A program made the translations under genes and the position numbers. A stretch of 64,000 nt of DNA from Steroidobacter agaridevorans (GTDB lineage: Bacteria; Pseudomonadota; Gammaproteobacteria; Steroidobacterales; Steroidobacteraceae): assembly GCF_009932555.1 (NCBI RefSeq), contig NZ_BLJO01000005.1, forward strand, positions 85,140 through 149,139, written 5' to 3'. Shown here piece after piece: positions 17,850-36,163 of the stretch (position 1 is the first letter of the stretch; the number at the start of each line of letters is the position of its first letter). The notes beneath the pieces are model-generated. The model saw nothing but the letters and a program-made list of their open reading frames with translations. It made no database searches and was not told where the DNA came from.

Positions 17850-18158
17850 TCATTGCCCCACCAGGATCAACTTGCCGGTTTTTGGATCGCGATACACCTG
17901 GCCCACCGGCTCCATACCGGCGCCCGCCGCCTGGCCGCGCAGACCCTCCGGCAACTCGGCCAGCTCACGGCCCGGCTCAACGACTTGCTTGCCACCCTCG
18001 GCGCTGCTGGAGGTCTTATTGAGCACCGGCTGTGCCGACACCAGCGCAACGATCAAGCCGCAAATGAACACCAGCATGATGTCCACGAGATTGACCAGCG
18101 ACGCCTGCGGGTCCTCGGGCGTCTCGTCGAATCGCGCGCTGCTCCAACGACGCCTCAC
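17850..18158 (-). CDS. DUF2149 family small membrane protein (ExbD/TolR-like topology)
   Basis: Start chosen at GTG 18158, preceded by GGAG at 8-base spacing, giving 102 residues. A basic, then acidic N-terminus (RRRWSSARFDETPED) leads into a single transmembrane helix from about residue 24 (NLVDIMLVFICGLIVALVS), then a periplasmic tail ending GQVYRDPKTGKLILVG, typical of DUF2149. Asp26 near the start of the helix (VDIMLV) resembles the proton-carrying Asp in ExbD/TolR (IDVMLV, LDVLLV). It is the third gene after the riboswitch, downstream of the ExbB-like gene, so the two probably form a proton-driven pair serving the CobN-like protein; that function is inferred. Confidence 0.8.
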   Translation of the reverse strand: MRRRWSSARFDETPEDPQASLVNLVDIMLVFICGLIVALVSAQPVLNKTSSSAEGGKQVVEPGRELAELPEGLRGQAAGAGMEPVGQVYRDPKTGKLILVGQ

Positions 18159-18202
18159 GACTGACGCTCCCAACGGAACTTCATGATTGTTGCTCCCAAC
18201 GG
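18155..18202 (-). repeat. Imperfect 26-base tandem duplication at a gene junction
   Basis: The 22 bases at 18155-18176 and 18181-18202 match at 18 positions, offset by 26 bases. Each copy holds a GGGAG Shine-Dalgarno-like sequence followed by ATGA or GTGA. The upstream copy covers the true ExbB-like C-terminus (RWEQQS, stop); the second copy would encode a ghost RWERQS and stop, and provides the ribosome binding site and start of the DUF2149 gene. Confidence 0.75.
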
Positions 18203-18618
18203 AGCAAAGCCTCGTCGTACCACCGTCGTCGCAACCGACCGATGATGAAGCCCACGACACCGGCAGCCAGCCCCAGCACGGTGGCGTCGAAGGCCGTCAG
18301 CATCGCTTCGGCCAGCAGGTTCAGACTGCCATTGCTGAGCGCCTTCAACCCAGGCCCGAGCGAGATCAACGTGGCCATCAAACCCAGCATCGGTGACGTG
18401 CGAGTAAGAATGTCCGCCCGCTCGATGCGTCGATGTGCCCGGCGTTCTACCGCGCCAATATCCGCTGGCCGCTCACGCCGGCGCAAGAACCCGCGTTCCC
18501 CGAACAGCACACCCACATCGACACAAGCGAGCGCGATGCAAACAAACAATCCGATGACCACTGGCGTCAAGAGCAGCGGCACCAGCGTGTGGGTCCATTG
18601 CACGATGAATGAGTTCAT
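18181..18618 (-). CDS. MotA/TolQ/ExbB proton channel family protein
   Basis: Start at 18618 overlaps the cobN-like stop as ATGA and gives 145 residues. A first hydrophobic helix (LVPLLLTPVVIGLFVCIALA, about 12-31) is followed by a basic cytosolic stretch and the family signature RTSPMLGLMATLISLGPGL, then AMLTAFDATVLGLAAGVVGF, the helix pair that lines the channel in ExbB/TolQ/MotA. It is shorter than canonical ExbB and lacks its large cytoplasmic domain. With the DUF2149 gene it probably harvests proton-motive force for a periplasmic partner. No tonB gene is in the window. Confidence 0.86.
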   Translation of the reverse strand: MNSFIVQWTHTLVPLLLTPVVIGLFVCIALACVDVGVLFGERGFLRRRERPADIGAVERRAHRRIERADILTRTSPMLGLMATLISLGPGLKALSNGSLNLLAEAMLTAFDATVLGLAAGVVGFIIGRLRRRWYDEALLRWEQQS

Positions 18619-21600
18619 GCGGAACGTTCCTTGGGAGCAATGTAACGTCCGCGGAGATATCCGGCGGACAGCAATACCGCGATCGCGAGCACGATGACCA
18701 GCAACGCCCAAGGCGAGCGACCGCTCGCACCCTCAGCATCAGAACGCTGCTTGGCCTCATCTTCAGTTGCTGCCTGCAGTTCCGCCATCGTCGTCGGCGA
18801 TGAAGCGGACTTCGCATCCACGCGCGCGCGTTCGAGCAGTTGCTTGAGCGGCTCGATCTGATCGGCCCGTAGATAAGGCTGCACCCACTGGAACACGGGA
18901 TGATCCGGCTGCGTGTGTCCGCTGCCCGGCAAGCCGTGTTCAAGCAACAGATCCACCCACTTCTGACTGAGCCGCTGCAACGTGGCCTCATCGGTCTGCC
19001 AGAACTGCTTCTCGGCGGCGACCAGCAGGATGGCAATCATGTTGGTCTTCACGTGCACATTGGAGCCCTGCTCGAGGAACTGGTCCAGTCCGAGGCCATG
19101 CGAGTCGTCGACATACACCTGCTTGACCTCGTCCCACGCCCAGCTCTTGATCACATCCGGGTTCGTGACCTGCCAGCCCCACAGGTACTCCATGAACTCG
19201 CTGCCCATGGTTCGAGCACCAGCGTAACCATGCTGCATCAACGGTTTGATCCACGCCGGATTCAGATAGCGGCCGCGCAGTTCGGACAACAACGCCGTAG
19301 GCAGCGGCTGCATCGTCGGCTGCGCTGGATTGGAATGATCGGCGACATGACTGGCCGGCACACGACCGCTCAACGTTTCCACCGCGAGGCTCAAGCCGCC
19401 CAGATAGTCGAACGCATCGTTGTTATCCATCAGGCCGTAGAGATTGCTCGACCGGCCCAGATAGGTGTTGCGCACCTCCCGCAAGTTGCTCTTCAGCAGC
19501 TCCTGTTGCGCCTGACTCGTCCCGTCGGCCGAGTATGCGTGCCCAATCCGGTCGATATAGATCTTCGCCAGCTCCTTGCGATCGTTCCAGCTGCCGGAGC
19601 GCTCCACCGCGCGATTGATGCCGGCGCTGTAATCGCCCGGCGATGTGCCGAACACACGCAAACTCGCCCGCTTACCCGCTTCTGCATGCCCGACGCGTTG
19701 CTTGATGAGCGCCGATGTTTCATTCACCCAATGGCGCGCAACATGATTTCGCGCCAGCGGCTCGTCACCGGGACTCGCCATCGGACCCAACGGCTCCAGC
19801 GCAGCGCGCAGTGCCGATGTCAGATCGGGGCGACTGCGCTCGATGGTGCGTCGGCTGCCATCCAGCGCCAGCAGCACGGCCTTGTCCAGCCAGACAATCT
19901 GCTGACCGAACAGATCTCGAAACAAACCCGACGTGACGAATACCGTATCGGCGCGCTGACCGACGTCGTTCAGCGGCAGGCGCTCGAGCCCCGCGACGAT
20001 GCCACGACTGTTCCACTGTGGCGCGACGCCGAGCAGTGACAACCCAAAGCCCACCATCGCACCTTCGTCCCGCACCGAATCGGACGCCCACAGGATGACT
20101 GCCTCCTTGCCATCCTCTTTCACTCTCGAGCGCGCCTCGCTCGCGAGCTTCGCGCCCAACGAATAACCCAGCCGTGACGGAATCAGACTGTTGTCGAGAC
20201 CATGAAAGTTACGCCCCGTCGGCAGCGCCTCGGCATTGCGAATGGGATCGCTGCCCGGACCGGCAGGAACGAAACGGCCCGCGAGACCGTGCAACAGCGC
20301 GCGCATTTCATTCTCGGGCGAGCTCTGCAGATTCTGTCGAAGCGCTTTGTCGTCGGCGCCTGCCTTCATGGACACCAGCATCGTGTCGAGGGCTTCCTTC
20401 TGCCACGGCTTGCCGAACACATGCAGGCCCAGCGGCATGAAATCTTCCTGCAAGTGCGTGAGGTAATGACCGATCTCGTGCACGAGCAACTCGTCGTCGG
20501 CCTGCTCGAACGAGATGCCGCGCACTTTCAACTCGGCGTCCATGCTTGCAGTCAGCGCGTCTTTGAGATGCAGCTCATCGATCAAACCGCGCATCGATTC
20601 AGCGGCTTGCTTGCGCAGGGCCGGGTTGTTCGACGACTCGTAACTTTCCACCAGCTGCCGAAGACGCAACAGGTCGTCATAGAGCGGTGTCGCCGTGAGC
20701 GGCGGAATCAAATGATCGACCATCACCGCGAGTCCGCGCCGCTTGGCCTGCAAACCCTCGCCGACGCCATCGACTATGTAGGGATAGATACCCGGAATGT
20801 CGCCGGCGATCAGCGCCGGATAATCCAGCTCATCCTGACCGACGCCTTTGCGCGGCAGGAACTCATAGGTCGAGTGACGTCCCAAATGCACGATGGCATC
20901 GGCGCGGAACTCGTGACGCAGCCAGAAATAGAACGCGAGGTACTGATGCGTCGGCGGAATGCTGGTGTTGGCGTGTAACAGCTCCTCGTTCAGCTCCCAG
21001 CCGCGCGGGGGCTGCGGCCCCACAAATATCTTGCCGAAGCGCACACCCGGCAGCACGAGCTTGCCTCTATTCACCATCACATTGCCCGGCAATTCGCCCC
21101 AGCCTCGCAGCCCTTCAACGCCGGTAGCTGCAATCGCGCGAGTCAGCGAGTCGATACGCGCTTCGTTGCCGCCTTTACTCAGCTGAGTTTCATACGCAGC
21201 TTGCAGCTGTTTCACGAGATCGAGGGCACGGTTTCGCGCGGGATGTTGTGCGCCTTCGAGCAGATGTTCGACCTCGTGCAGCGTTCGATTGACTTGACCC
21301 CGCGCTTCCTGAGGCAAGCGCGCAGCTTGTGCCGCTTGGACATTTGCTTGTAGCAATGCCAATGGGCCGCCGGTCATTTCCTTCTGCAACGGTTGCTGCA
21401 AGGCCGCGAACCATTGCGCATACTGCTCAGCGCTTACATTGGCAACTCGCGTCGCCATCGCGCGCAACACATCGCCCTGCTCGGGGAGATTCACGCCGTC
21501 CTGTTGCAGCCGCTCGAGCAGATCCGCCGATGACGCAGGCAGCGATCCCGTGTCGTAACCTTCGCGCTTCAAAGCCCGCAGGATTTCCAGCAACGAGGCT

Positions 21601-22925
21601 GGCACGTCGAGATTGTCCGCGCCGATGTTGTGACGACCTGGCGGATGGTTGTAGTAGACGATGGCGACGTGCTTGTCGGCGTTCTTCATCTGTTGCAGCC
21701 GTGCCCAACGCTCGATTCGCGCCGTCAGCTGCTCGAGTTGGGATGGAATGGCTGCGACTCGGGTCACTGCGATGCCGGTCAAAGCATCCAGCTGCGGAGC
21801 AGCCGCGGCCGCAACGACGATCGGCTGACTGATCCCTTGCAGCTCCGGCATGGCAACGCGGTAGTAAACACTGTCCCAAGCCAGTCCTTGCTCTGACATA
21901 CGCCAGCCTTCGACAGTGACATCGTGCAATCGAAGTGCTTTCAGCACAGGCACATCGAGCTGCTCGATGCGGCGCGTCGCCTCAGCGCGATCGCTGCTGC
22001 CACCGACGATGAAATCCTGCACGGACACGATCGCACCTAGACGGGCGCCGACCTTATCGGCAATCACTCCCAACGCGTCGCTGCTCGGCCTGCCCCAACC
22101 CGCGAGCACCGTCAGGCAATCCAGATCCCGCGCACTCAACGAGCGGCAGATTGCTTCACTCAAACTCGCATCGGCGTGCTGATCCTCGAGTACCGCGACT
22201 ACGCGTCGATCGCCGGAGATGCGCAATGTTTCGGCGGTCGACCACTCGCCGCGATAGTGAAAGCGCATGGGAAGCGCATCTTCGACGGGCTTGATGGCCG
22301 CCGCGGCCGCGCGATCTTGCTCGGACAGCATCAACGCCAGCAGCGAGATCAGATTGGACGCACCCCGGTTCTGCCAGTACGCGCGCGCTTGAATCCAGGG
22401 CGTCAGTTGCGGATGGCGACGAACGGCCGCAGCGACAGCGTCCGCGCTCGCATCCTTCTCTGCCGTCAGCGACGACAACTCCGCATAGCGCGGATCTTCA
22501 TCGACAAACAAACGTTTGCTGCCCCATCGACTCTGCCGACCGAGCGCCGGGTCGCCGGCAACGGAGATGATCTCGCGAGCGCGAGTCGCCGGAAGCAGCG
22601 CCTGAACGCGCTGAGCCGTTTCTTTGAACACCGTGGCGAGCAACAACGCATCGGCGCCGCTGATCAGTTCTTCCAACTGAGCATCGCTAAGCGCATCGAC
22701 TTGCGCGGTCGTGCGGAAGATCAATCGATGGTTGGGCAGCCGCTGGTTGACATCACGCGCCGCTTGCGCGAGATCGCCGGAATTGCGCTCGGATACGACC
22801 GCAACGAGCGTGGCCGCGGATATCTCGGCGGCGAAACAAGAAAGGATCAGGGCAAACAGTCCGCGTAACACACGGACGACGGGGCGAGACTGAGATCGCA
22901 CAGCGGGACCTGCGGGAGCTGACAC
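18615..22925 (-). CDS. cobN: Exported, membrane-anchored CobN-like chelatase subunit
   Basis: A 1436-residue CobN/BchH-family protein. The family core is clear: HLGRHSTYEFLP (His680, His684, Glu688), then GIYPYIVDGVGEGLQAKRRG and DHLIPPLTATP. Unlike cytosolic CobN it begins with a basic segment and Sec-type signal (GLFALILSCFAAEISA, about 23-38) and ends with one transmembrane helix (about 1400-1425) and a positive tail, so nearly all of it should be periplasmic. GTG 22925 is used; GTG 22901 is an alternative with a nearer GCAGG. A cobalamin riboswitch precedes it and ExbB/ExbD-like genes follow. True CobN needs AAA+ CobS/CobT partners, not seen here; HmuS of Bacteroidota heme-uptake loci is a closer functional model. 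Substrate (corrinoid or other tetrapyrrole) is inferred. The symbol denotes family only. Confidence 0.88.
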   Translation of the reverse strand: MSAPAGPAVRSQSRPVVRVLRGLFALILSCFAAEISAATLVAVVSERNSGDLAQAARDVNQRLPNHRLIFRTTAQVDALSDAQLEELISGADALLLATVFKETAQRVQALLPATRAREIISVAGDPALGRQSRWGSKRLFVDEDPRYAELSSLTAEKDASADAVAAAVRRHPQLTPWIQARAYWQNRGASNLISLLALMLSEQDRAAAAAIKPVEDALPMRFHYRGEWSTAETLRISGDRRVVAVLEDQHADASLSEAICRSLSARDLDCLTVLAGWGRPSSDALGVIADKVGARLGAIVSVQDFIVGGSSDRAEATRRIEQLDVPVLKALRLHDVTVEGWRMSEQGLAWDSVYYRVAMPELQGISQPIVVAAAAAPQLDALTGIAVTRVAAIPSQLEQLTARIERWARLQQMKNADKHVAIVYYNHPPGRHNIGADNLDVPASLLEILRALKREGYDTGSLPASSADLLERLQQDGVNLPEQGDVLRAMATRVANVSAEQYAQWFAALQQPLQKEMTGGPLALLQANVQAAQAARLPQEARGQVNRTLHEVEHLLEGAQHPARNRALDLVKQLQAAYETQLSKGGNEARIDSLTRAIAATGVEGLRGWGELPGNVMVNRGKLVLPGVRFGKIFVGPQPPRGWELNEELLHANTSIPPTHQYLAFYFWLRHEFRADAIVHLGRHSTYEFLPRKGVGQDELDYPALIAGDIPGIYPYIVDGVGEGLQAKRRGLAVMVDHLIPPLTATPLYDDLLRLRQLVESYESSNNPALRKQAAESMRGLIDELHLKDALTASMDAELKVRGISFEQADDELLVHEIGHYLTHLQEDFMPLGLHVFGKPWQKEALDTMLVSMKAGADDKALRQNLQSSPENEMRALLHGLAGRFVPAGPGSDPIRNAEALPTGRNFHGLDNSLIPSRLGYSLGAKLASEARSRVKEDGKEAVILWASDSVRDEGAMVGFGLSLLGVAPQWNSRGIVAGLERLPLNDVGQRADTVFVTSGLFRDLFGQQIVWLDKAVLLALDGSRRTIERSRPDLTSALRAALEPLGPMASPGDEPLARNHVARHWVNETSALIKQRVGHAEAGKRASLRVFGTSPGDYSAGINRAVERSGSWNDRKELAKIYIDRIGHAYSADGTSQAQQELLKSNLREVRNTYLGRSSNLYGLMDNNDAFDYLGGLSLAVETLSGRVPASHVADHSNPAQPTMQPLPTALLSELRGRYLNPAWIKPLMQHGYAGARTMGSEFMEYLWGWQVTNPDVIKSWAWDEVKQVYVDDSHGLGLDQFLEQGSNVHVKTNMIAILLVAAEKQFWQTDEATLQRLSQKWVDLLLEHGLPGSGHTQPDHPVFQWVQPYLRADQIEPLKQLLERARVDAKSASSPTTMAELQAATEDEAKQRSDAEGASGRSPWALLVIVLAIAVLLSAGYLRGRYIAPKERSA

Positions 22926-23027
22926 ACCACACGGTGCGAACGCCTTCAGGCATCGCTCCGTGAACCTGTCGCCGCTGCAGGAATTCCCGCTCGTTCAGCA
23001 CACCCCGGCTGCACGAAGACGACCACG

Positions 23028-23193
23028 GCAAGCTGGTCTCCTGGCTCGCGGCTTGAGGCCTACATCACCTTCCCAGGCGTGAAACCCAGTGGTCAGCTCT
23101 CGCGAGCTTCGATGGCGGCACCGCTTACAGTTGCGGGGGCAGCCCGGGCATTGCACCCGGTTCCCATGACTTGTCGTTCGCGCGACACCTTGC
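23028..23193 (-). promoter_or_regulatory. Cobalamin riboswitch upstream of the cobN-like operon
   Basis: On the minus strand the class hallmarks appear in order: GGGAA, the GGTGCAA-type stem, GCTGCCCCCGCAACTGTAAG, and the B12 box region AGCCAGGAGACC (plus 23035-23046). Ends were set by a P1 pairing of GCAAG (plus 23089... actually the complement at 23189-23193) with CTTGC (complement at 23028-23032). It starts about 10 bases after the cobU stop and lies about 100 bases before the cobN-like start, so B12 should repress this operon. The expression platform was not resolved. Confidence 0.95.
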
Positions 23194-23203
23194 GCGAAAA
23201 TTG

Positions 23204-23812
23204 TTACGTCGTCAATCGACCGCCACGGAACGTCTTGATGGGCACGGCAATTCCGGCGACTACCAAAGTCACTTCGTCGCAGGCCGCGGCCAGCATCTGG
23301 TTCAGCCGACCCTGCTCGTCCTGAAAGCGCCGCGCGACCGGCGACAACGGCACGATGCCCGCGCCCACTTCATTGGAAATCAACAGCACGTCGCGGCGAA
23401 CTGCCTGCAGCCATTGCAGAAAATCAGCGCGCTCCGACTCCCAGGCTGGCAGCTCCGCGGTCGGCGCATCCTCACGAAAATCCTTTAACAAAGCGTTGGA
23501 TAACCACAGAGTCATGCAGTCGATCACGAGCATGGACGATGCATCCTGGCCTCGCAGCGCTTGCGCAAGACCGGCCGGTGCTTCTAAGGTGCGCCACGTT
23601 GCCGGTCGCTCGGCCCGATGTAACGAGATGCGATGCTGCATCTCCTGATCGAGTGCTTGCGCGGTGGCGACGTAGGTGACATTCACGCCCCGCGCATCCG
23701 ACAGCGATTTCGCCAGAGCAAGGGCATGAGCGGTCTTCCCCGAGCGCGCACCGCCGATGATCAGGCGCCGCCCGACCGAAGCTCGCTCACCCGACACGTC
23801 ATCCTCTACCAT
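23204..23812 (-). CDS. cobU: Bifunctional adenosylcobinamide kinase / adenosylcobinamide-phosphate guanylyltransferase CobU
   Basis: Phosphorylates adenosylcobinamide and adds GMP from GTP, giving AdoCbi-GDP for the nucleotide-loop pathway; cytoplasmic. The protein (about 202 residues) has the P-loop GGARSGKT near the N-terminus, then YVATAQALDQEMQHRI and LHRAERPATWRTLE, which includes the guanylylated His region of CobU, and SNEVGAGIVPLSPVARRF near the C-terminus. ATG 23812 is used; GTGs at 23821 and 23797 are alternatives. It lies head-to-head with cobT, leaving almost no intergenic space, and its stop is next to the riboswitch. Confidence 0.94.
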   Translation of the reverse strand: MVEDDVSGERASVGRRLIIGGARSGKTAHALALAKSLSDARGVNVTYVATAQALDQEMQHRISLHRAERPATWRTLEAPAGLAQALRGQDASSMLVIDCMTLWLSNALLKDFREDAPTAELPAWESERADFLQWLQAVRRDVLLISNEVGAGIVPLSPVARRFQDEQGRLNQMLAAACDEVTLVVAGIAVPIKTFRGGRLTT

Positions 23813-23832
23813 TGCCTGCACTCACCGATCAG

Positions 23833-24852
23833 ATGCTGCCCATGATAACCAACGCCACCTTGCAACGCCGACTCGATACGCGCACCAAGCCGCAAGGGTC
23901 GCTCGGCGCACTGGAAACCCTGGCGGTCCGCATCGGCCTGGCGCTCGATACCGAAACGCCGGTGTTCCGCGCCCCGCAAATGTTTGTATTTGCAGGCGAC
24001 CATGGCATCGCCACCGATGGTGTCAGCGCTTACCCACAGTCCGTGACCTCGCAAATGTTGCTCAACTACTTGCACGGCGGCGCGGCCATCAATGTGCTGG
24101 CGCGTCAGCATGGCATTTCTTTGCGCGTCGTCGACGCCGGCGTCGCCAGCGACACTGGAGAACATCCGTCACTCGTTGCTCGCGCCATTGCCCGAGGCAC
24201 CCGTAACTTTCGAGTCGAGCCGGCGATGACACAAGCTCAATGCACGCAGGCGCTCGACACCGGTCGCGCGCTGGCGCAAGAAGCTTTGAGCGCAGGATCG
24301 AACGCGTTGCTGTTTGGCGAGATGGGCATCGGCAACACCGCTTGCGCCTCGATGCTGCTGCATCGGCGAACGGGTTGGTCCTTGGAAGATTGCGTCGGTC
24401 GCGGCACGGGCCTCGACGATGTCGGTTTGGCCCGCAAGCGCGAACGCCTGGCGGCCGCGTCGGCGCGTCGTCCCGAAAAGCTCTCGCCGCTCGAAACGAT
24501 CGCCGAATACGGCGGGTTCGAGTTGGCGATGATCACTGGCGCCTTGCTCGCAACCGCCGACGCGAAATGCATCGCCGTGATCGACGGCTTCGCTGTATCG
24601 GTCGCTGCGTTGCTCGCCATCGAGATCGATCCCCGAGTTCGGACCCGGTGCATCTTCAGCCATTGCTCGGCGGAACATGCACATCGAAACTTGTTAGCTC
24701 ATCTCGACGTGAAGCCGCTGCTCGACCTGGGCATGCGACTCGGCGAAGGGACGGGCGCGGCCATGGCGTGGCCCATCATCGACGCCGCAGCCCGCTTGAT
24801 GACCGAGATGGCCAGCTTCGAATCCGCAGGAGTGGACGACAAGGCTTCATGA
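23833..24852 (+). CDS. cobT: Nicotinate-nucleotide--dimethylbenzimidazole phosphoribosyltransferase CobT
   Basis: Activates the lower ligand base to alpha-ribazole phosphate for cobalamin assembly. The 339 residues show TKPQGSLGALE near the N-terminus, FAGDHGIATDGVSAYPQSVT, GEMGIGNTACASML and the catalytic C-terminal EGTGAAMAW region (LGEGTGAAMA). ATG 23833 is chosen over the in-frame TTG 23812 and ATG 23842; no strong ribosome binding site favours any. The stop overlaps the cobS start (ATGA). This is the salvage/assembly CobT, not the unrelated AAA+ cobaltochelatase subunit of the same name. Confidence 0.95.
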   Translation: MLPMITNATLQRRLDTRTKPQGSLGALETLAVRIGLALDTETPVFRAPQMFVFAGDHGIATDGVSAYPQSVTSQMLLNYLHGGAAINVLARQHGISLRVVDAGVASDTGEHPSLVARAIARGTRNFRVEPAMTQAQCTQALDTGRALAQEALSAGSNALLFGEMGIGNTACASMLLHRRTGWSLEDCVGRGTGLDDVGLARKRERLAAASARRPEKLSPLETIAEYGGFELAMITGALLATADAKCIAVIDGFAVSVAALLAIEIDPRVRTRCIFSHCSAEHAHRNLLAHLDVKPLLDLGMRLGEGTGAAMAWPIIDAAARLMTEMASFESAGVDDKAS

Positions 24853-26204: not shown

Positions 26205-26723
26205 ATGAACGCTGCCGATAGTGCTCGTGAGCGCGGGCGCTTCGAGGCGCTGTGCATGCCGTTTCGGGCCGATGTGTTTCGGTTCGTGTACTGGCTTTGC
26301 CGAGACCGGGCGTTGGCGGAGGATGTGGTGCAAGAGACGCTGCTGCGAGCGTGGCGGTCGCTGGACTCGCTCGGCGACGAGAAGTCCGCGCGACCTTGGC
26401 TGCTGACGATTGCACGACGCGAGCTGGCGAGAGTGTTCGAGCGCAAGAGGCTGCCCATCGTGGACATCGATGTCGCCAACGAAGCCGAGCCCGACTCGCT
26501 GGCCGTCAACGATCAGCATGAAGTCGAGGACATGCGACGCGCGATTCTGAAACTGGACGTGACCCACCGCGAGCCGCTGGTGCTCCAGGTGCTGCTGGGC
26601 TATTCCACCGAGGAGATCGCCCGGCACCTGGACATCAGTGTCGCTGCCGTGTTGACGCGTCTGTTTCGTGCGCGACAGGTTCTGCGTCAGCAGCTTCTGG
26701 GCGCGGAGGGCTCGCGGTCATGA
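26205..26723 (+). CDS. ECF-family RNA polymerase sigma factor
   Basis: The 172 residues have sigma region 2 (PFRADVFRFVYWLCRDRALAEDVVQETLLRAW, about 19-50, split here by motif: FRFVYWLC and EDVVQETLLRAW), and sigma-70 region 4 with LQVLLGYSTEEIARHLDIS and ISVAAVLTRLFRARQ. No region 1 or 3 is present, which defines the ECF class. The stop overlaps the next gene (ATGA), a zinc-type anti-sigma factor, so it is probably sequestered until a periplasmic or redox/metal signal. Targets may include the nearby bufferin-like gene and doxX; that is inference. Confidence 0.92.
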   Translation: MNAADSARERGRFEALCMPFRADVFRFVYWLCRDRALAEDVVQETLLRAWRSLDSLGDEKSARPWLLTIARRELARVFERKRLPIVDIDVANEAEPDSLAVNDQHEVEDMRRAILKLDVTHREPLVLQVLLGYSTEEIARHLDISVAAVLTRLFRARQVLRQQLLGAEGSRS

Positions 26724-27391: not shown

Positions 27392-27400
27392 GCCTGAAAT

Positions 27401-27428
27401 GCACAGCGGCGCTTGCGCGCCGCTGTGC
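27401..27428. terminator. Bidirectional hairpin between convergent genes
   Basis: Perfect 12-base stem GCACAGCGGCGC (27401-27412) with its complement at 27417-27428 around TTGC. It sits between the anti-sigma stop (27391) and the stop of the convergent bufferin-like gene (27449). No T-tract on either side, so it may act as an RNA 3'-end stabiliser rather than an intrinsic terminator. Confidence 0.55.
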
Positions 27429-27448
27429 GAGTCGATTGCAGAACGCAA

Positions 27449-28616: not shown

Positions 28617-28651
28617 CGAAGACCGGCGCGGACCTCATCCTCGCGCCGCGC

Positions 28652-28824
28652 GACAAGTTCCCCGTCAAGGGGATTCAAAGGGAACTCGGGTGTGAAGCCC
28701 GGGCTGCCCCCGCAACTGTAAGTGGTTCGCCGCGCGTCAAAAAACCACTGGCGTCACCCCAGGAATGGGTCCGCCGGGAAGGTGACGCGAGGACTTCAGC
28801 CATCAGCCAGGAGACCTGCTTGCC
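28652..28824 (+). promoter_or_regulatory. Cobalamin riboswitch upstream of btuB
   Basis: Contains GGGAACTC, a GGTGTGAAG-type stem, GCTGCCCCCGCAACTGTAAG and AGCCAGGAGACC (28805-28816), the conserved elements of the adenosylcobalamin riboswitch in the right order and spacing. The 3' limit follows CTTGC (28819-28823), which can pair with CAAG at 28654-28657. It lies 131 bases before the btuB start and should turn off the whole btuB-cobQ operon when B12 is plentiful. Confidence 0.96.
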
Positions 28825-28955
28825 GCCGTCGTCCATCGATCGGCCGGGGTGTGCCGAGAGAACGGGAATTTCCCTGTAGAGGCGACCGGTGCATGGGTCG
28901 CGACGCGTTTGTGAGTTGCAGCCCGTGCGGTTTGTAACTTACAGCGGAGCTCTCA

Positions 28956-30917
28956 GTGTCTACCCATCCCGTTTCCGGCCCCACCCCCCGGGCCTCGTCT
29001 CGCCTTCTCACCCTGTCCGTCGCCTTGCTGCTGCATCCCGCGTGGTCCGCGATGGCGGCCGATATGCAGGATGGCGTCGAAGATGTCATCGTCACCGCCA
29101 ATCGCATCGCGCAGGAAACATCGCGCGTCGGCGACTCGGTCACTGTAATTACCGCGAAAGAACAGCGTCTCAGCCAGAAAACCGCCGTGTCCGATCTGCT
29201 CGCGCTGACACCGGGCGTGACGGTCGCGCGCAATGGCGGCTTCGGCGGCACCACGACGATTCGAATTCGTGGCGCCGAGAGCCATCAGACGATGGTGCTC
29301 ATCGACGGCGTCAAGCTCAACGATCCGTCCTCGGCCAGCGGCGAATTCAACTTCGCGGATCTCATCACCACCGACTTTGCGCAGATCGAAGTGTTGCGCG
29401 GCCCGCAGTCCACGCTGTGGGGCAGTCAGGCGATCGGCGGCGTAGTAAACATCGTGACGCCGGTGCCCGAAGGCCCGCTGTCCGCATCTGTCTCCGCCGA
29501 GGGTGGCACTCACGAAACCGCGATCATGCGCGCTCACGCGCAGGCCGGCGGCGACCGTTTCGCCTGGCGCGTCAGCGGCAATTATTTGACCAGCGACGGC
29601 ATCTCCGCCTATTCGCGCGACCTGGGCGGTCGCGAGCCTGACGGCTATCGAAATGTTGGCTTCACGGCGCGCGGCATTCTGCACATCACTGACAACGTCT
29701 CCGCCGAAATCCGCTCGACCTGGAGCGACGGCCGCTCGGACTACGACGGCTTTGTGGGTTTCAATCTGGCAGACACGCCCGAGTACGGCACGACCGAAGA
29801 ATTGACCACCTACGCCGGTGTGAAATTCGATGTGTTCGACGGACGTTTCGAGAATCGCATCGGCTTCGCGTACACCGATACCGACCGCAAGGACACCGAT
29901 CCTTCGTCGACGGTGCCGACCACTTTCGATGCGGACGGTCGCAACGAGCGTTGGGAATATCAGGGCACGCTGCGTATCACGGAGCGCGTGAGCACCATCG
30001 TCGGCCTGGAGTCGGAACGCTCCGAGCTGAGTTCGGCATCGCCCACCACGTTCGATCCAGATCCCGCGCCGCTGACCGGCGAGGTGCAGATCGACAGCGC
30101 CTACGCGCAAGTCAACGTAACGCCGATCGATGCGTTGTCGTTGACGGCCGGCGTTCGCTATGACGATCACGATACCTTCGGCGGGCACACGACGACCCGT
30201 GCGTCGGCTGCATGGTCGGTCACGCCGTCGACGATCCTGCGCGCCAGTTATGGCGAAGGATTCAAGGCGCCGACGCTGTATCAGCTGTACAGCCTGTACG
30301 GCAATCTGAATCTCGACGCCGAAGAGGCCGAGAGCTGGGATGCCGGCATCGAGCAGCACTTCTTCGACAAGCAGCTGGTGGTGTCCGCGACCTACTTCGA
30401 CCGCGACACGACCAACATGATCGACTTCGTCTCCTGCTGGGGCGAGACCTCGCCGGATTGCCTGGCGCGGCCCGACGGTTACTACGACAACTTCCAGCAA
30501 ACGAATGCCCACGGCGTCGAACTGGCGATGGCCGCGCACTTGACCGAACAGCTCTCGCTCACCGTGAACTACACGAACATGGATGCGGAGAACACGGCGC
30601 GCGGCACCGCGAACTTCGGCCATTCGCTGCCGCGTCGGCCGGATGAAACGACCAATGCGCAAGTGAGCTATGAGTGGCCGGTCGGTCTGACGACGACGGT
30701 TGCCGTCCAGCATGCGAGCCGCAGCTTCGACACGATCTCGAATGCCGCCGTGCTGGATGGTTACACGCTGGTCGACTTCCGCGCATCGCTTGCGGTGAGC
30801 GATTCGTTGGAAGTCTACGGTCGCATCGAGAATGCGTTCGATGAAGAGTACGAGACCGTGAAGAACTACGGCACGCTCGGTCGCACGTTCTACGCCGGCC
30901 TGCGGCAGAGCTTCTGA
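28956..30917 (+). CDS. btuB: TonB-dependent vitamin B12 outer-membrane receptor BtuB
   Basis: Outer-membrane active transporter for cobalamin. GTG 28956 follows GGAG at 6-base spacing. The 653 residues have a signal peptide (to about 35), a TonB box EDVIVTA (42-48), a plug domain with VLIDGVKLNDP and RGPQSTLWGSQAIGGVVNI, and a 22-stranded beta-barrel ending in the outer-membrane signature FYAGLRQSF with terminal Phe. The riboswitch upstream and the B12 genes downstream justify BtuB rather than a siderophore receptor. The stop overlaps the next start by 1 base (TGATG). Confidence 0.94.
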   Translation: MSTHPVSGPTPRASSRLLTLSVALLLHPAWSAMAADMQDGVEDVIVTANRIAQETSRVGDSVTVITAKEQRLSQKTAVSDLLALTPGVTVARNGGFGGTTTIRIRGAESHQTMVLIDGVKLNDPSSASGEFNFADLITTDFAQIEVLRGPQSTLWGSQAIGGVVNIVTPVPEGPLSASVSAEGGTHETAIMRAHAQAGGDRFAWRVSGNYLTSDGISAYSRDLGGREPDGYRNVGFTARGILHITDNVSAEIRSTWSDGRSDYDGFVGFNLADTPEYGTTEELTTYAGVKFDVFDGRFENRIGFAYTDTDRKDTDPSSTVPTTFDADGRNERWEYQGTLRITERVSTIVGLESERSELSSASPTTFDPDPAPLTGEVQIDSAYAQVNVTPIDALSLTAGVRYDDHDTFGGHTTTRASAAWSVTPSTILRASYGEGFKAPTLYQLYSLYGNLNLDAEEAESWDAGIEQHFFDKQLVVSATYFDRDTTNMIDFVSCWGETSPDCLARPDGYYDNFQQTNAHGVELAMAAHLTEQLSLTVNYTNMDAENTARGTANFGHSLPRRPDETTNAQVSYEWPVGLTTTVAVQHASRSFDTISNAAVLDGYTLVDFRASLAVSDSLEVYGRIENAFDEEYETVKNYGTLGRTFYAGLRQSF

Positions 30918-31960
30918 TGGACAGTGGCGCCGACATTGCAGCCGGTCGTTTCGCACATCACGGTGGCCGGCTGTGTGTCGCGCGCTCGCTGTTTCCCGAT
31001 GTGCCTCAGCCGTGGATCGACCTGTCTACGGGCATCAATCCTTCGTCATATTCAGCGCCGCGAGCTTCGGCTCGCGAGCGCAATCGATTGCCGGAGCCGA
31101 GCGAGCTCGCGAAGCTCGAAGCGGTGGCAGCCGCGGCCTTTGGTGTAGACGATCCTGCGCGCGTCGTCGCGACTGGCGGGACGGAGAGCGCGCTTCGATT
31201 GCTGCCGTATTTGTTGAGGACCGGTTCGGCTGTCGTTGCGGGGCCGACGTATGGGTCGCATGCTGATGCATGGATGCGAGCAGGTGTAGATACGAATATG
31301 GTCGCCGACTCGGAGCTGGCGGCCCGAGCCAGCGCTGCCGGCGCTGCCATGACTGTCGTCAATCCAAACAATCCGGACGGACGCGTGCTGAGCCGCGAGC
31401 AACTACAAACGCTGCATGATTCTTTGCAAGCAAACGGTGGCGCGCTGATCGTCGACGAAGCGTTCGGCGATCTCGAGCCCACTCACTGCGTCGCCGGCCT
31501 GGCCGGCACGGACCGCGCGGCGCGCATGATCGTGTTGCGCTCGTTTGGGAAGTTCTATGGATTGGCCGGCGTGCGTTTGGGATTCGTCGTTGCCTCCCCC
31601 GTCATTGCCACTCAACTGCGTCACATGCTCGGCGACTGGCCCGTGTCTGTGGATGCGTTGCGCGCGGGACTCGCCGCCTACGCAGACGAGGCCTGGGCGG
31701 CGAAAACGCGGCTTCGCTTGCATCGCGCCGCGCAGCGTCTCGACAAGCTGCTCGTCGACGCCGGCATGACCATCGTCGGGGGCACCTCGCTTTATCGGCT
31801 GGCTCGTGCTTCGAACGCGCGCGCAAGATTCACGCAACTCATCTCACACGGCCTCCTCGCCCGGCCGTTCGACTACGACAGCACGCTGTTACGTTTCGGT
31901 CTGCCGCTCGGTGCAAAAGACTGGCGCCGTCTTGCGGACGCGCTGAAGGTGCAACCATGA
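30917..31960 (+). CDS. cobD: Threonine-phosphate decarboxylase CobD (class I/II PLP aminotransferase fold)
   Basis: Makes (R)-1-amino-2-propanol phosphate, the linker between corrin ring and nucleotide loop. The 347 residues show the family start GGRL...WIDLSTGINP, the cofactor segment VVNPNNPDGRV, DEAFGD and the PLP lysine Lys212 in RSFGKFYGLAGVRLGF. It overlaps btuB by 1 base and cobO by 4. The product would be used by CbiB, encoded in the same operon. Confidence 0.93.
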   Translation: MDSGADIAAGRFAHHGGRLCVARSLFPDVPQPWIDLSTGINPSSYSAPRASARERNRLPEPSELAKLEAVAAAAFGVDDPARVVATGGTESALRLLPYLLRTGSAVVAGPTYGSHADAWMRAGVDTNMVADSELAARASAAGAAMTVVNPNNPDGRVLSREQLQTLHDSLQANGGALIVDEAFGDLEPTHCVAGLAGTDRAARMIVLRSFGKFYGLAGVRLGFVVASPVIATQLRHMLGDWPVSVDALRAGLAAYADEAWAAKTRLRLHRAAQRLDKLLVDAGMTIVGGTSLYRLARASNARARFTQLISHGLLARPFDYDSTLLRFGLPLGAKDWRRLADALKVQP

Positions 31961-32586
31961 GCACACCGACCGACGGCCTTTCCGAAGCCGAGAAGGACCG
32001 TCTGCACGCCGAAGAAATGAGGCTGCGCCAGGCGGAGCGTCGCGCCGAGCGCGCAACCAAGAAGGAACGCGGCGGCCTGCTGATGATCCTCACCGGCCCT
32101 GGCAAGGGCAAATCCTCCAGCGCCTTTGGCATGGTGGCCCGCGCGCTCGGTTGGGACATGCGCATCGGCATCGTGCAGTTCATCAAGGGCAAGTGGCAGA
32201 CCGGCGAGAAACATTTCTTCCGCCGCTTTCCCGAACTGGTGACGTTCGAAGTGATGGGCGAAGGCTTCACCTGGGACGTGCAGGACCGCCAGCGCGACAT
32301 CGCCGCCGCCCAGAAGGCGTGGCAACGCGGCTGCGAGCTGATCGTCGATCCCGAGTATGACTTCGTGCTGCTCGATGAGCTGAACATCGCCATTCGCAAC
32401 GATTACGTCAGCATCGATGAAGTGGTTGCGTTCCTGAAGAATCGTCCGCGCGACAAGCATATCTGCATCACTGGGCGCGACGCGCGCCCCCAGCTGACCG
32501 AGATCGCCGATCTGGTCACCGAGATGACGCTGATCAAACATCCGTACGAGGCCGGTTTCAAACCGCAGCGTGGAGTGGAATTTTGA
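31957..32586 (+). CDS. cobO: Cob(I)yrinic acid a,c-diamide adenosyltransferase CobO (BtuR/CobA type)
   Basis: Transfers the adenosyl group of ATP to the reduced cobalt of corrinoids. The 209 residues have a charged N-terminal helix, the inverted-type P-loop GPGKGKSSSA (47-56), KGKWQTGE and LLDELNIA, and ITGRDARPQL. The ATG overlaps the cobD stop. It is one of two unrelated adenosyltransferases in this window; the PduO-type enzyme lies at 39126-39698. Confidence 0.95.
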   Translation: MSTPTDGLSEAEKDRLHAEEMRLRQAERRAERATKKERGGLLMILTGPGKGKSSSAFGMVARALGWDMRIGIVQFIKGKWQTGEKHFFRRFPELVTFEVMGEGFTWDVQDRQRDIAAAQKAWQRGCELIVDPEYDFVLLDELNIAIRNDYVSIDEVVAFLKNRPRDKHICITGRDARPQLTEIADLVTEMTLIKHPYEAGFKPQRGVEF

Positions 32587-33449
32587 AACCCTGGCTCGCA
32601 CCGCTGCTGGCCGCTCTATGGCTCGCGCCGGGCGCACAGGCGGGGGAACCGGCGCCTCACCCGATGCGCATCGTTTCGTTGAACATGTGCGTCGACAGCA
32701 TCGTCGTCGAACTGGTCTCGCACGATCGGATTGCGGCACTCAGCCACTACGCGCGCGATCCGCAGCGTTCAACGATTTCAGACGCGGCCCGACACCTGCC
32801 GATCACTTATGAAACCGCCGAGGAAGTCGTCGCGCTCCGGCCGGACCTGGTGCTCACCAGCCGCCACTCGGCGATTGCCACTCGCAATGCGCTGAAGCGG
32901 GTCGGCATTCGATTCGAGTTGTTCGATGTTCCGGCCAGCATCGAAGAGAGCCTGGCGCAGGTGAGACAGGTCGCGCATCTGCTGGGCGCGGAGCGTGAGG
33001 GCGAAGCGATGGTTGCGCGCATTCAGGCCGCGCTGGACGCTGCTCGCCTGCCTCCTGAAGAGCCACCGTTGACCGCCGCCATATATCAGCCCGGCGGCTT
33101 GTCTGCTGGCGCGGATACCGTCGTCGGTGAATTGATGGAGCTCACCGGCCTTAGAAACATCGCCGCGCGCTATGGCGTCGAGCAGTATCGTCCGCTGCCT
33201 TTGGAAGTGCTGGTTTCAGCGCCGCCGGATGTGTTGCTGGTGGGCGAGACTTCGCCCGGCGCACCGCTGCAGGCAGAAAAGATTGTGCGCCATCGCGCAT
33301 TGCACGCTTTGGATTCTCAAATGACACAAGCCGTGTTTCCAGCGCGGCTCCTGTACTGCGCCGGACCGACGATGGTCCCTGCGGCGGCTGCGCTTGTGCA
33401 TGCTCGTGAGCAAGCGTGGGCCGTGCGGCGTACGAGGGTCAGGCTGTGA
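32583..33449 (+). CDS. btuF: Periplasmic cobalamin-binding protein BtuF (class III ABC substrate-binding protein)
   Basis: Delivers B12 from the periplasm to BtuCD. The TTG start at 32583 overlaps the cobO stop; a signal peptide (WLAPLLAALWLAPGAQA, about 3-20) follows, with RIVSLNMCVDSIVVEL, the class III start. The 288 residues form two lobes joined by a long helix (SIEESLAQVRQVAHLLG). The usual start GxG/ALxP motif is altered (SLNMCVDSI), as in BtuF-like or cobamide/iron-chelate-binding homologues. Its place between cobO and btuCD supports a corrinoid substrate. Confidence 0.88.
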   Translation: MKPWLAPLLAALWLAPGAQAGEPAPHPMRIVSLNMCVDSIVVELVSHDRIAALSHYARDPQRSTISDAARHLPITYETAEEVVALRPDLVLTSRHSAIATRNALKRVGIRFELFDVPASIEESLAQVRQVAHLLGAEREGEAMVARIQAALDAARLPPEEPPLTAAIYQPGGLSAGADTVVGELMELTGLRNIAARYGVEQYRPLPLEVLVSAPPDVLLVGETSPGAPLQAEKIVRHRALHALDSQMTQAVFPARLLYCAGPTMVPAAAALVHAREQAWAVRRTRVRL

Positions 33450-34423
33450 CTTCGCGTCGGTGGGCCGTACCTTCGCTTTTGGCGCTCGTGGTCGTGCTCG
33501 CGATCCTGTCGATCGCCGTTGGCCGCGTGACGCTGACTTGGGATATGTGGAAGGCACAGGATGCTGTCAGCCGCGCGATTCTGCTCGAGCTGCGCCTGCC
33601 TCGCGCGATCCTGGGTGTATTGGTCGGCGCATCGCTCGGCCTTGCAGGCGCAGCGATGCAGGGATATTTGCGAAATGCCCTCGCCGAGCCGGGAACGTTG
33701 GGCGTATCGGCGATGTCGGCACTCGGCGCTGTGCTCAGCATCTTCTTCAACATCGCCGGACTGCATCCGTGGGTACTACCCATCTGCGGCGTGACAGGCG
33801 GCATGACGGCCATGGCTGCGTTGTTTGTTTTGTCCGGCATGGCGGCCAGCGTGCTGACGCTCGTCTTGTCCGGCATCATCCTGAGCGCGCTCGCCGTCGC
33901 CGGCATTTCGTTGGTGCTGTCGTTATCACCCAGCCCGTGGGCAGCCGGTGAGATCGTACGCTGGATGCTGGGTGGGCTCACGGATCGAAGCTTCGATGAG
34001 CTGACCATCGCCGCGCCGTTGATCGTGATTGGATGTATCGCGGTGCTCGGTTGTCGTCGTTCCCTGGACGCGCTGACGCTCGGCGAGACGGGCGCCCGCT
34101 CGCTCGGCATCGATTTGAACCGTGCGCAATGGCAGCTGGCCTTTGGCATCGGCCTGATCGTCGGTGGCAGTACTGCGGTTACGGGCGTGATTGGATTCGT
34201 CGGCCTGATCGTGCCGCACCTGATGCGCTCGCTGGTCGGCTCGCGCCCGGGCGCATTGTTAGTTCCCAGCGCCATTGGCGGCGCGGCCCTGGTGCTCGCG
34301 GCAGACATTGCCGTCCGACTCCTGCCCGGCGGCTCGGAGCTCGAGCTCGGGGTGGTGATGTCGTTGATCGGCGCACCGTTCTTCTTCGTGCTGCTGCACT
34401 CCATGCGGCGCAAGCTCACATGA
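33446..34423 (+). CDS. btuC: Cobalamin ABC transporter permease BtuC (FecCD family)
   Basis: Inner-membrane channel subunit for B12 import. GTG 33446 overlaps the btuF stop (GTGA) and gives 325 residues with about nine to ten helices. The FecCD signatures LRLPRAILGVLVGASLGLAG, GAAMQGYLRNALAEPGTLGVS and the cytoplasmic coupling loop GFVGLIVPHLMRSLVG are present. A GTG 30 bases upstream is possible but lies inside btuF. It is coupled to btuD by another 4-base overlap. Confidence 0.92.
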   Translation: MTSRRWAVPSLLALVVVLAILSIAVGRVTLTWDMWKAQDAVSRAILLELRLPRAILGVLVGASLGLAGAAMQGYLRNALAEPGTLGVSAMSALGAVLSIFFNIAGLHPWVLPICGVTGGMTAMAALFVLSGMAASVLTLVLSGIILSALAVAGISLVLSLSPSPWAAGEIVRWMLGGLTDRSFDELTIAAPLIVIGCIAVLGCRRSLDALTLGETGARSLGIDLNRAQWQLAFGIGLIVGGSTAVTGVIGFVGLIVPHLMRSLVGSRPGALLVPSAIGGAALVLAADIAVRLLPGGSELELGVVMSLIGAPFFFVLLHSMRRKLT

Positions 34424-35218: not shown

Positions 35219-36163
35219 ATGTTCGACCCCTGGTTACTCATCGCGGCGCTGATCGTCGAAGCCTGCGTCGGCTATCCGCTCGCCCTTTATCGCGCGATTC
35301 GTCATCCGGTGGTTTGGATCGGGATCGCGCTCGATGCGCTGGAGCGTCGCTGGAACCGACCGGAATTCGGCGATGGAGCGCGGCGCTCGCTGGGCGTTGT
35401 CACTGTCGTGTTGGTAGCGGGCGGCGCTGCTGGGATCGGTTACGTCGTTCAGACATTGGCCGGCCATGTTTCTTTCGGTTCGGCTTTGATTGTCCTGGTC
35501 GCGAGCACTGGCCTCGCTCAGCACAGTTTATTTACTCACGTTCGTGCTGTGCTTCAGCCGCTTGCCAGTGGCGATTTGGTTGCCGCACGCCGCGAAGTTG
35601 CGCAGATCGTTGGCCGTGATACGGAGGCGCTGAGCGAATCCGGTGTGGCGGGGGCAGCGCTGGAAAGTCTCGCGGAGAGTTTCAACGACGGTATCGTCGC
35701 GCCAGCGTTCTGGTTGTTCGTCGGCGGCTTGCCCGGCTTGTTTGCTTATAAAGCGCTGAATACCGCCGACAGCTTGATCGGCCATCGAGAGGCGCGCTGG
35801 CGGATGTTTGGTTGGGCGGCCGCGCGTGCCGACGACGTTGCGAATCTCATTCCCGCCCGCCTCGCTGGCGCGTTGCTCGCCATCGCTGGCGGCGGTGGAT
35901 TGTTAGTGATGTGGCGGGACGCGCCGAAACATGCATCGCCAAATGCCGGTTGGCCCGAAGCCGCGATGGCCGGCGCGCTGCGCATTCGACTCGGCGGACC
36001 GACGGCTTACGACGGCGTCATGCATGAACGGCCTGTGTTCGGCGCAGGTTCGTCGCCGACGGTTGACGACCTCAAGCGCGGACTTCGTATTTACGTGATC
36101 GCCTGCGGTTTGCTGTGGCTGACTGCGGTCGCGACGGGATTCGCGATGGGTGCGAACGGCTGA
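35219..36163 (+). CDS. cbiB: Adenosylcobinamide-phosphate synthase CbiB
   Basis: Membrane enzyme that amidates the propionate of adenosylcobyric acid with aminopropanol phosphate. ATG 35219 follows btuD by 4 bases and gives 314 residues with several helices. Family motifs seen are HPVVWIG near the N-terminus, ESLAESFNDGIVAPAFW, YKALNTADSLIGHR and APSPNAGWPEAAMAG-like (ASPNAGWPEAAMAGAL). The stop overlaps the cobQ start (TGATG). Also called CobD in the aerobic-pathway nomenclature. Confidence 0.94.
   Translation: MFDPWLLIAALIVEACVGYPLALYRAIRHPVVWIGIALDALERRWNRPEFGDGARRSLGVVTVVLVAGGAAGIGYVVQTLAGHVSFGSALIVLVASTGLAQHSLFTHVRAVLQPLASGDLVAARREVAQIVGRDTEALSESGVAGAALESLAESFNDGIVAPAFWLFVGGLPGLFAYKALNTADSLIGHREARWRMFGWAAARADDVANLIPARLAGALLAIAGGGGLLVMWRDAPKHASPNAGWPEAAMAGALRIRLGGPTAYDGVMHERPVFGAGSSPTVDDLKRGLRIYVIACGLLWLTAVATGFAMGANG

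Follow-up and report, generated by a model that had tools for sequence, protein, structure and literature searches.

A cobalamin riboswitch-controlled, exported CobN-family protein encoded with an ExbB/DUF2149 pair in Steroidobacter agaridevorans, a candidate chelatase for corrinoid salvage

Cytosolic CobN acts with AAA+ partners (CobS/CobT) in de novo corrin ring synthesis and carries neither a signal sequence nor a membrane anchor. The hmu operon of Bacteroidota (BtuS1/BtuS2 in Bacteroides fragilis) encodes an exported and doubly anchored CobN-family protein, HmuS, together with HmuU (ExbB) and HmuV (DUF2149), an architecture described for hmuSTUV in excerpts of a published study (PMC10434189). 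In the Zur regulon of Pseudomonas aeruginosa, PA1922-PA1925 code for a TonB receptor, a CobN-like protein, ExbD and DUF2149, according to the available part of that report (PMC9431628). Plasmid pSZ77 of Geobacter lovleyi carries a cobN-exbB-exbD-tonB cluster in a B12 gene context from which CobS/CobT are absent (PMC3403914). A passage of another paper credits BtuS as a third CobN type to Rodionov 2003 (PMC6460266). Here we analyze a window of 64,000 nucleotides from Steroidobacter agaridevorans (contig NZ_BLJO01000005.1, positions 85,140 to 149,139), in which a cobalamin riboswitch leads three genes coding for an exported CobN-family protein, hereafter CobN*, an ExbB-like protein, and a DUF2149 protein. 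No description of a riboswitch-controlled periplasmic CobN with ExbB/DUF2149 was found among the open-licence papers that our literature searches listed.

CobN* has the fold and the His plus Asp metal-site pattern of cytosolic CobN, which is among its nearest structures, but is set apart from it by its signal and anchor, by a gene neighborhood in which no AAA+ partners were recognized, and by hosts that mostly lack the corrin-ring marker CbiC. With the HmuS system it has in common the joint encoding of ExbB and DUF2149, an invariant HxGxH site, and a TonB receptor, whereas HmuS belongs to an iron/heme regulon in which HmuT and HmuY are present. As far as the available accounts go, and likened by description rather than by sequence, PA1922-PA1925 share the gene architecture of the CobN* operon but are zinc-controlled and have their own receptor. 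The pSZ77 cluster, compared on the same footing, likewise places a CobN-like gene with ExbB/ExbD in a B12 context, although it includes a tonB gene and two flanking receptors. The CobN* module is real and widespread, its architecture is already known from HmuS and PA1922-1925, and its putative chemistry is deduced from sequence.

All coordinates below are those of the window. The riboswitch (23014..23207, minus strand) matches RF00174 with 99.6 bits (gathering score 31.5), which confirms the original prediction that such an element stands ahead of cobN*. The cobN* gene (18615..22925, minus strand) has a GTG start and codes for a class I chelatase homolog of 1436 amino acids, whose predicted CobN-family membership is confirmed by a PF02514 match of 842 bits. 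An N-terminal signal segment of about residues 1-38 (22812..22925, minus strand) is recognized as a hydrophobic 12-mer with a Kyte-Doolittle (KD) score of at least 1.8, and a C-terminal transmembrane (TM) anchor of about residues 1405-1424 (18654..18713, minus strand), followed by a positive tail, as a hydrophobic 15-mer. Column conservation across CobN* proteins marks the first active-site motif, HLGRHSTYE (20862..20888, minus strand), and His680, His684, and Glu688 lie there exactly as first numbered. The second motif, DNNDAFD (Asp1167-Asp1173; 19407..19427, minus strand), includes Asp1170 in the column of HmuS His1209.

The stator-like protein of the ExbB/TolQ/MotA type (18181..18618, minus strand; PF01618, 36.3 bits) has an ATG that overlaps the cobN* stop codon (ATGA), and the DUF2149 gene comes next, so the translational coupling proposed for cobN* and its ExbB-like neighbor is borne out. 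The DUF2149 product (17850..18158, minus strand; PF09919, 44.7 bits) is an ExbD-like protein with one TM segment and a TM Asp in NLVDIMLVF. Its start is taken as the GTG at 18158 because the longer open reading frame (ORF), with a start at 18260, overlaps the ExbB gene. This arrangement of a CobN-like gene, riboswitch, ExbB, and DUF2149 is real, goes beyond chance, and is not a local oddity.

A scan of a species-genome collection with two peptide patterns gave 316 stretches (a count of stretches rather than of genes) encoding a relative, and the best 80 loci were kept. In addition, two CobN-like candidates per genome were scored in a class sample of 274 genomes. A near-full-length CobN* match is present in ten of these 274, including the window's own genome, with the other nine showing 49-52% identity. 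The closest relatives are found in Peristeroidobacter and Steroidobacter (up to 94% identity), and the best 80 loci are spread over Gamma- and Betaproteobacteria, Nitrospirota, Nitrospinota, Myxococcota, and Campylobacterota. The CobN* set used below comprises 84 proteins from the 80 loci, the window, and three class-sample genomes.

Membrane segments were scored with a hydropathy measure rather than a signal-peptide predictor. The N-terminal hydrophobic 12-mer is present in all 84 CobN* proteins, the C-terminal hydrophobic 15-mer in 81, and a net positive C-terminal tail in 83, while neither segment is found in any of six cytosolic-type relatives. By this measure, the claim that an N-terminal signal and a C-terminal anchor leave the body of the protein in the periplasm is supported for the window protein and for nearly all of its relatives. 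The window protein also misses the curated cutoffs of all nine matched NCBIfam equivalog models for CobN and BchH, with scores that include 600.9 against 1619 and 526.6 against 822.05 for CobN and 580.1 against 829 for BchH. Judged as a member of the CobN class, it has the domain, but it is neither a cytosolic protein free of a signal nor carried by a ring-making host.

The two smaller genes accompany cobN* almost without exception. All 80 loci have ExbB next to it, and 79 also have DUF2149, the exception (L073) being at a contig end. A conserved TM Asp is a hallmark of ExbD, TolR, and MotB, and the corresponding residue of DUF2149 is kept in all 81 copies compared (79 loci, the window, and a second copy in the window's genome). 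The pair therefore combines a PF01618 channel domain with a one-TM partner bearing an invariant Asp, as do the ExbB/ExbD, TolQ/TolR, and MotA/MotB stators, although DUF2149 is short and no TonB-like arm was identified, with no search aimed at a TonB gene. The proposed proton-driven metal chemistry is an inference from the gene linkage and the invariant ExbD-type Asp.

Phylogenetic analysis used 46 rows under LG+G4 with a short search, giving an unrooted tree in which the four Protein Data Bank chains are represented by fragments only. In this tree, 30 CobN* proteins form one clade with a Shimodaira-Hasegawa-like approximate likelihood ratio (SH-aLRT) support of 100, apart from CobN, ChlH, and HmuS. 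HmuS, which has a long branch, joins six other exported, signal-bearing proteins at 97, with CobN* outside; the other rows are CobN, together with a set of cytosolic relatives, and ChlH, together with a further relative. A single branch, equivalent to one change, parts all exported from all cytosolic rows. ExbB and DUF2149 are encoded at all six exported non-CobN* loci and were not found at the six cytosolic loci. The separation from cytosolic CobN that had been predicted is thus upheld insofar as CobN* forms its own clade and does not group with ChlH, and not insofar as it would exclude a sister relation to CobN. Our best reading is that CobN* represents a fourth clade of class I chelatases.

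The putative metal site is strictly conserved. In HmuS, His538 is reported to be indispensable, with His1209 opposite it on the other side of the cleft (PMC12583661). His684 of CobN*, which aligns with His538, is present in 84 of 84 proteins, as are all other columns of the first motif except 681 (L/V/I) and Tyr687 (82/84), and Arg683 and Ser685 (84/84 each) are CobN* signatures. In place of the HmuS signature LSLDHxxEFMGG with His1209, the window protein has LMDNNDAFDYLGG, and Asp1170 is invariant (84/84). This column is also Asp in the CobN structures 9uk9 and 7c6o and in five of six cytosolic relatives, and is His in HmuS, ChlH, the ChlH-like relative L050, and the exported protein L058. 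The columns of the HmuS heme ligands Met79 and His254 lie in a divergent region, in which none of 30 CobN* proteins has Met or His. As a separate observation, L058 (8257-12519) encodes an exported CobN-like protein whose distal metal column is His (LDTDHPFEYLGG), unlike that of five relatives, and this protein is a candidate for a true heme dechelatase in a proteobacterium.

Structure models place CobN* near the chelatases. A model of the head/neck (residues 38-575; predicted local distance difference test (pLDDT) score 86) matches CobN 7c6o (Z 13.9, root-mean-square deviation (rmsd) 6.4, 371 residues aligned), ChlH (13.9, 16.2, 386), and HmuS (9p4s: 11.9, 4.5, 262; 9d26: 11.7, 5.0, 387). The model of the C-terminal half is closest to CobN (7c6o: Z 47.0, rmsd 1.8, 380 aligned; 9fpc: 46.7, 1.8, 376), followed by ChlH 4zhj (43.6, 2.1, 382) and then HmuS 9p4s (35.7, 2.7, 399). 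The body model has a pLDDT of 73 overall with a poor domain III, and we therefore claim no geometry for His684 and Asp1170.

A riboswitch upstream is a common feature of the module. Fifty of the 80 loci were chosen, and 49 of the genomes that carry them were searched for RF00174 with Infernal; all 49 contain this RNA. Sites were assigned to loci with contig identity judged by coordinate only, and about 13 rows outside the locus ranges were left out. Among the matches listed, 33 of the 49 genomes have a riboswitch at most 450 nucleotides ahead of the matched cobN* start, and 12 others have one on the same strand at a distance of 1.7-5.9 kb upstream. Eight of these 12 far-upstream sites were also recovered in the locus sequence by a regular expression. 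That expression misses the compact form of the riboswitch (47 of 81 sequences gave no same-strand upstream match), and the Infernal matches were used instead. Even where the neighboring genes have no apparent link to B12, as in Methylophaga, Poseidonibacter, and Marinobacterium, a riboswitch stands in front of the three genes. Neighbors in the 80 loci, named by reading of the sequences wherever they go beyond the window's own reference genes, include a TonB receptor (35), CobO (19), CobB (17), an aminotransferase (15), BluB (15), CbiB (13), and a BtuF-like protein (11).

The biosynthetic capacity of the hosts was surveyed in 50 genomes, namely the 49 searched for riboswitches and the window's own. 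CbiC, a corrin-ring marker, is present in six hosts and missing from 44, and is present in 29 of the 274 class-sample genomes. Because these rates are about the same, the module does not track ring synthesis. The original prediction that corrin-ring genes and AAA+ partners are missing fared differently in its two parts: no CbiC was found in the window's genome (97.3% complete), which carries the first part beyond the window, whereas the second holds for the gene neighborhood only and not genome-wide. No CobS/CobT or ChlI/ChlD was recognized among the families that occur in at least five of the 80 loci; whole genomes were not searched for them. A FecCD permease is encoded in 49 of the 50 hosts (G312 is the exception), which leaves the idea that the module replaces BtuCDF unsupported.

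The a,c-diamide synthase CobB is encoded by 41 of the 50 hosts and by 35 of the 44 that lack CbiC. The background depends on how TIGR00379 hits are counted, since their scores in the class sample form two distinct clusters. The upper cluster, above about 360 bits, was excluded from the stricter count as mostly DsrN-like; in all three cases inspected (G099, G131, and G039), the gene lies beside DsrO/DsrP-like genes by ORF reading, and calls of CobB in sulfur oxidizers are therefore unsafe. Among class-sample genomes without CbiC and without the module, CobB is found in 14 of 238 with the high-scoring hits aside or in 100 of 238 with all hits, where the former count leaves out fragments in G045, G067, G075, G186, and G259 as well as G082, and includes a partial hit in G238. 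G277, G291, and G292, three of the 41 CobB-bearing hosts, exceed 360 bits as well, and in two of them the gene is adjacent or close to cobN*; if all three are left out, CobB is present in 32 of the 44 hosts. With hosts and controls drawn differently and kinship ignored, Fisher tests give p values of 5e-25 (against 14/238) and 5e-6 (against 100/238) for 35/44, 2e-21 and 2e-4 for 32/44, and 0.008 inside the class sample for 3/7 hosts against 14/238. Ten of the 80 loci, from Nitrospirota, Methylophilaceae, and Colwelliaceae, have CobB immediately ahead of cobN*, with a gap of -196 to 67 nucleotides. The NF002204 cutoff is passed by both of the CobB proteins examined, one of which is encoded next to cobN*. 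The use of CobB as proof of metal-free corrinoid salvage is weakened by the background count that includes DsrN-like hits.

G236 and G089 encode CobG (323 and 247 bits, cutoff 234.8), and thus late cobalt insertion, in clusters to which cobN* belongs; the cluster of G121 looks similar by ORF reading. These CobG-type ring clusters are located at G236:C14, G089:C2, and G121:C4 (L139-L141, L045, L046, and L048). A second CobN was not found in the three genomes, where only two candidates were scored per genome. If it is truly absent, CobN* would be their sole large cobalt-chelatase subunit. Of the six CbiC-bearing hosts in the 50-genome survey, five were inspected (G316 was not). In Azotobacter (L142), a cytosolic-type CobN accompanies CobN*. 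The loci of Duganella, Oleispira, and Zoogloea (two) contain CbiG-like genes, joined in two of these loci by CbiX-like ones, indicative of early insertion, by ORF reading. At Zoogloea L146:4571-12707, cobN*-exbB-DUF2149 is followed by CbiM-like, CobM-like, and CbiX-like genes; the CbiX-like protein matches sirohydrochlorin-chelatase models below cutoff, and the CbiM-like gene is likewise below its model cutoff. A single role is needed for hosts with no ring synthesis, with early insertion, and with late insertion, and corrinoid salvage fits all of these whereas de novo cobalt insertion does not. Late insertion in de novo synthesis is thus rejected as a general role, given that 44 of 50 hosts lack CbiC and that some have CbiG/CbiX-like genes.

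We favor a reading, with a probability of roughly 0.6, in which CobN* is a B12-controlled, periplasmic, motor-coupled chelatase for corrinoid salvage. Its parts differ in strength. A role in corrinoid salvage is highly probable, and energization by the motor pair is likely. Metal chemistry rather than mere handling is an even bet, for which the invariance of the metal-site residues argues, and cobalt insertion in particular is a tentative suggestion. Under this reading, the three genes would form a B12-repressed inner-membrane complex. When B12 is scarce, corrinoids would enter through a BtuB-type receptor and bind in the central cleft of CobN*, and the proton gradient, harnessed by the ExbB-DUF2149 stator, would power the domain motions for which the cytosolic relatives rely on CobS/CobT or ChlI/ChlD and ATP. 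CobN* probably edits the metal state of corrinoids, with cobalt loading preferred over removal, as far as sequence comparisons can indicate. The most likely reaction would be the repair or completion of the metal state, above all the insertion of cobalt into metal-free (hydrogenobyrinate-type) corrinoids, and the product would be imported by BtuCDF and finished by CobB/CobO/CobQ/CbiB/CobU/CobT/CobV. The presence of late-pathway genes with CobB in most hosts would fit a capture of early corrinoids in which periplasmic cobalt addition precedes import and amidation. The more specific proposal that CobN* is a periplasmic cobalt chelatase powered by the proton motive force (PMF), completing metal-free corrinoids scavenged from neighbors, is rather doubtful. 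Hosts that need a cobalt corrinoid would gain from insertion and not from removal, and the corrinoid dechelation that had also been proposed is the least useful reaction for the 44 of 50 hosts that lack CbiC and need the cobalt corrinoid intact. What stands of the machine originally envisaged is a complex that is periplasmic by its membrane segments, B12-controlled, linked to a motor, and tied to salvage. The analogy with HmuS extends to the overall architecture, but CobN* is not itself an HmuS: the ligands Met79, His254, and His1209 are not kept.

Several observations weigh against the favored reading. Among the matches listed, four of 49 loci have no same-strand riboswitch upstream, although at one of these (L102) a site lies next door on the opposite strand. 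CobB is missing from nine of 50 hosts, including the window's genome, and is present in at least 14 genomes that lack the module. Within the class sample alone, a comparison of 3/7 with 100/238 gives a Fisher p of 1.0, and the CobB link vanishes. CobB is expected to be cytosolic and CobN* periplasmic, and the gene pair therefore does not represent two consecutive steps in one compartment. Of the CbiC-bearing hosts inspected, some have CobG and others CbiG/CbiX-like genes, and a single need for a chelatase thus fails to account for all of them. The approximately unbiased (AU) test does not reject CobN* as sister to CobN (p-AU 0.145). Asp1170 is also found in five of six signal-bearing proteins on the HmuS side and is thus not specific for corrins; it means at most "not porphyrin-like". 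Finally, recombinant HmuS turns over heme with NADH, with no HmuU or HmuV in the reaction mixture that the excerpted text describes (PMC12583661), and metal chemistry in this relative therefore does not require a motor.

CobN* could instead handle corrinoids without any metal chemistry, as a giant periplasmic shuttle, with ExbB-DUF2149 as a dedicated motor that would load or unload it or would help to energize BtuB and pass the corrinoid on to BtuF. This is the least improbable of the alternatives, albeit unlikely. TonB receptors in 35 and BtuF-like genes in 11 of the 80 loci are consistent with it, as is the resemblance of the head/neck model to periplasmic binding proteins (Z about 9-10) besides chelatases, and transport of siderophores, B12, or corrinoid precursors was the guess offered for the Geobacter lovleyi cobN-exbBexbDtonB cluster in the accessible part of that report (PMC3403914). 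However, pure carriage does not demand metal-site residues that are invariant in 84 of 84 proteins, and with a FecCD permease already encoded in 49 of 50 hosts any transporter role would be additional. An improbable variant with metal chemistry has CobN* strip cobalt from corrinoids or other cobalt chelates and feed it to cobalt importers and CbiX/CobN. HmuS, for which removal of iron from heme is described in excerpts (PMC12583661), provides a precedent, and the Zoogloea L146 operon, with its CbiM-like and CbiX-like genes (both below cutoff) and CobM-like gene, would suit this role. However, the 44 hosts without CbiC have no known corrin use for free cobalt, and repression by B12 fits a need for corrinoids rather than for cobalt.

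It is still less probable that CobN* is an ordinary cobaltochelatase of aerobic B12 synthesis whose membrane segments are incidental. This would account for a fold nearest that of CobN and for the CobG-type ring clusters of G236, G089, and, judged from its ORFs, G121, which hold cobN* with no other CobN-like match among the two candidates scored per genome. It conflicts with the lack of CbiC in 44 of 50 hosts, the wide margin by which NCBIfam CobN equivalog cutoffs are missed, the near-universal signal (84/84) and anchor (81/84), and the additional cytosolic-type CobN of Azotobacter (L142). Least probable of all is a dechelatase for heme or another metalloporphyrin, with CobN* as the true proteobacterial ortholog of HmuS. 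The gene trio is the same as hmuS-hmuU-hmuV in the available description (PMC10434189), and the topology agrees with that given for HmuS in parts of a further report (PMC13227078). Nevertheless, CobN* forms a separate clade, Met79/His254 are kept in 0 of 30 proteins and His1209 is replaced by Asp in 84 of 84, and the B12 riboswitch and B12 gene neighbors do not suit a heme enzyme; HmuS orthology is disfavored by the tree and the ligand residues.

If a PMF-powered cobalt chelatase is indeed encoded here, class I chelatases would exist in two energized designs with one tree branch between them: a cytosolic design with AAA+ motors (CobN and ChlH) and a periplasmic design with ExbB/DUF2149 motors (the HmuS kind, the zinc kind, and CobN*). 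Members of the family may exchange an AAA+ motor for a proton stator. Together, CobN*, HmuS, and the Zur-controlled operon suggest that one architecture has been re-used for different metal complexes. Our findings point to an uncharacterized B12-scavenging step in soil, marine, and methylotrophic bacteria. Furthermore, a match to a CobN model in bacteria that lack CbiC need not denote a biosynthetic cobaltochelatase, which matters when B12 producers are predicted.

The surroundings of the operon in the window are those of corrinoid salvage, judging by the families of the encoded proteins. A second cobalamin riboswitch (28638..28837, plus strand; RF00174, 111 bits) precedes a gene for a BtuB-like TonB-dependent receptor (28956..30917, plus strand; PF00593/PF07715), whose best NCBIfam match, TIGR01779 (TonB-B12), is 327.9 bits and below the cutoff of 599.7. 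The salvage gene cobU/cobP (23204..23821, minus strand; PF02283) scores above the NF004469 cutoff, and cobT for 5,6-dimethylbenzimidazole (DMB) phosphoribosyltransferase (23812..24852, plus strand) above that of TIGR03160. Further genes on the plus strand code for the CobO/BtuR adenosyltransferase (31957..32586; PF02572), BtuF- and BtuC-like ABC importer parts (32583..34423; PF01497 and PF01032), assigned to B12 by context, and the cobyric acid synthase CobQ (36115..37638; NF001989, 610.5 bits, cutoff 273). The window also has an alpha-ribazole-phosphatase-like gene and, by ORF reading, cobV- and cbiB-like genes.

A PF02514 search revealed only one other CobN-like protein in the window's genome, which is signal-bearing and encoded on another contig (G000:C13:46352-51101, equivalent to L006:353-5102). 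Its gene follows that of a TonB receptor (L005:14401-16353) and precedes ExbB and DUF2149, and no riboswitch was found in the 36 kb around it. The protein groups on the HmuS side yet has no distal His. The arrangement resembles the Zur-controlled PA1922-1925 operon of P. aeruginosa, and by this analogy we would guess that its substrate is zinc or another metal complex.

Two minor observations concern neighboring genes. Nine of the 80 loci (for example L105:4483-5052) encode, beside cobO/cobB/btuB, a conserved small membrane protein marked by a TRG[HS]H motif, which is also encoded at L147:8562-9203, where the copy gave no Pfam match; judged by its neighbors, it is possibly a B12-related transporter component. 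In the window, the stretch 26205-28616 between a cobC-like gene and btuB contains, as read by eye, sigma-like and anti-sigma-like genes and a small Cys-rich secreted peptide within 27449-27988 (minus strand), as well as a gene whose membrane-protein product is HvfX-like (NF050144 at 51.6 bits, short of the cutoff of 80). From its predicted products, this gene group looks like a system for a metal-binding ribosomally synthesized and post-translationally modified peptide (RiPP) of the bufferin type.

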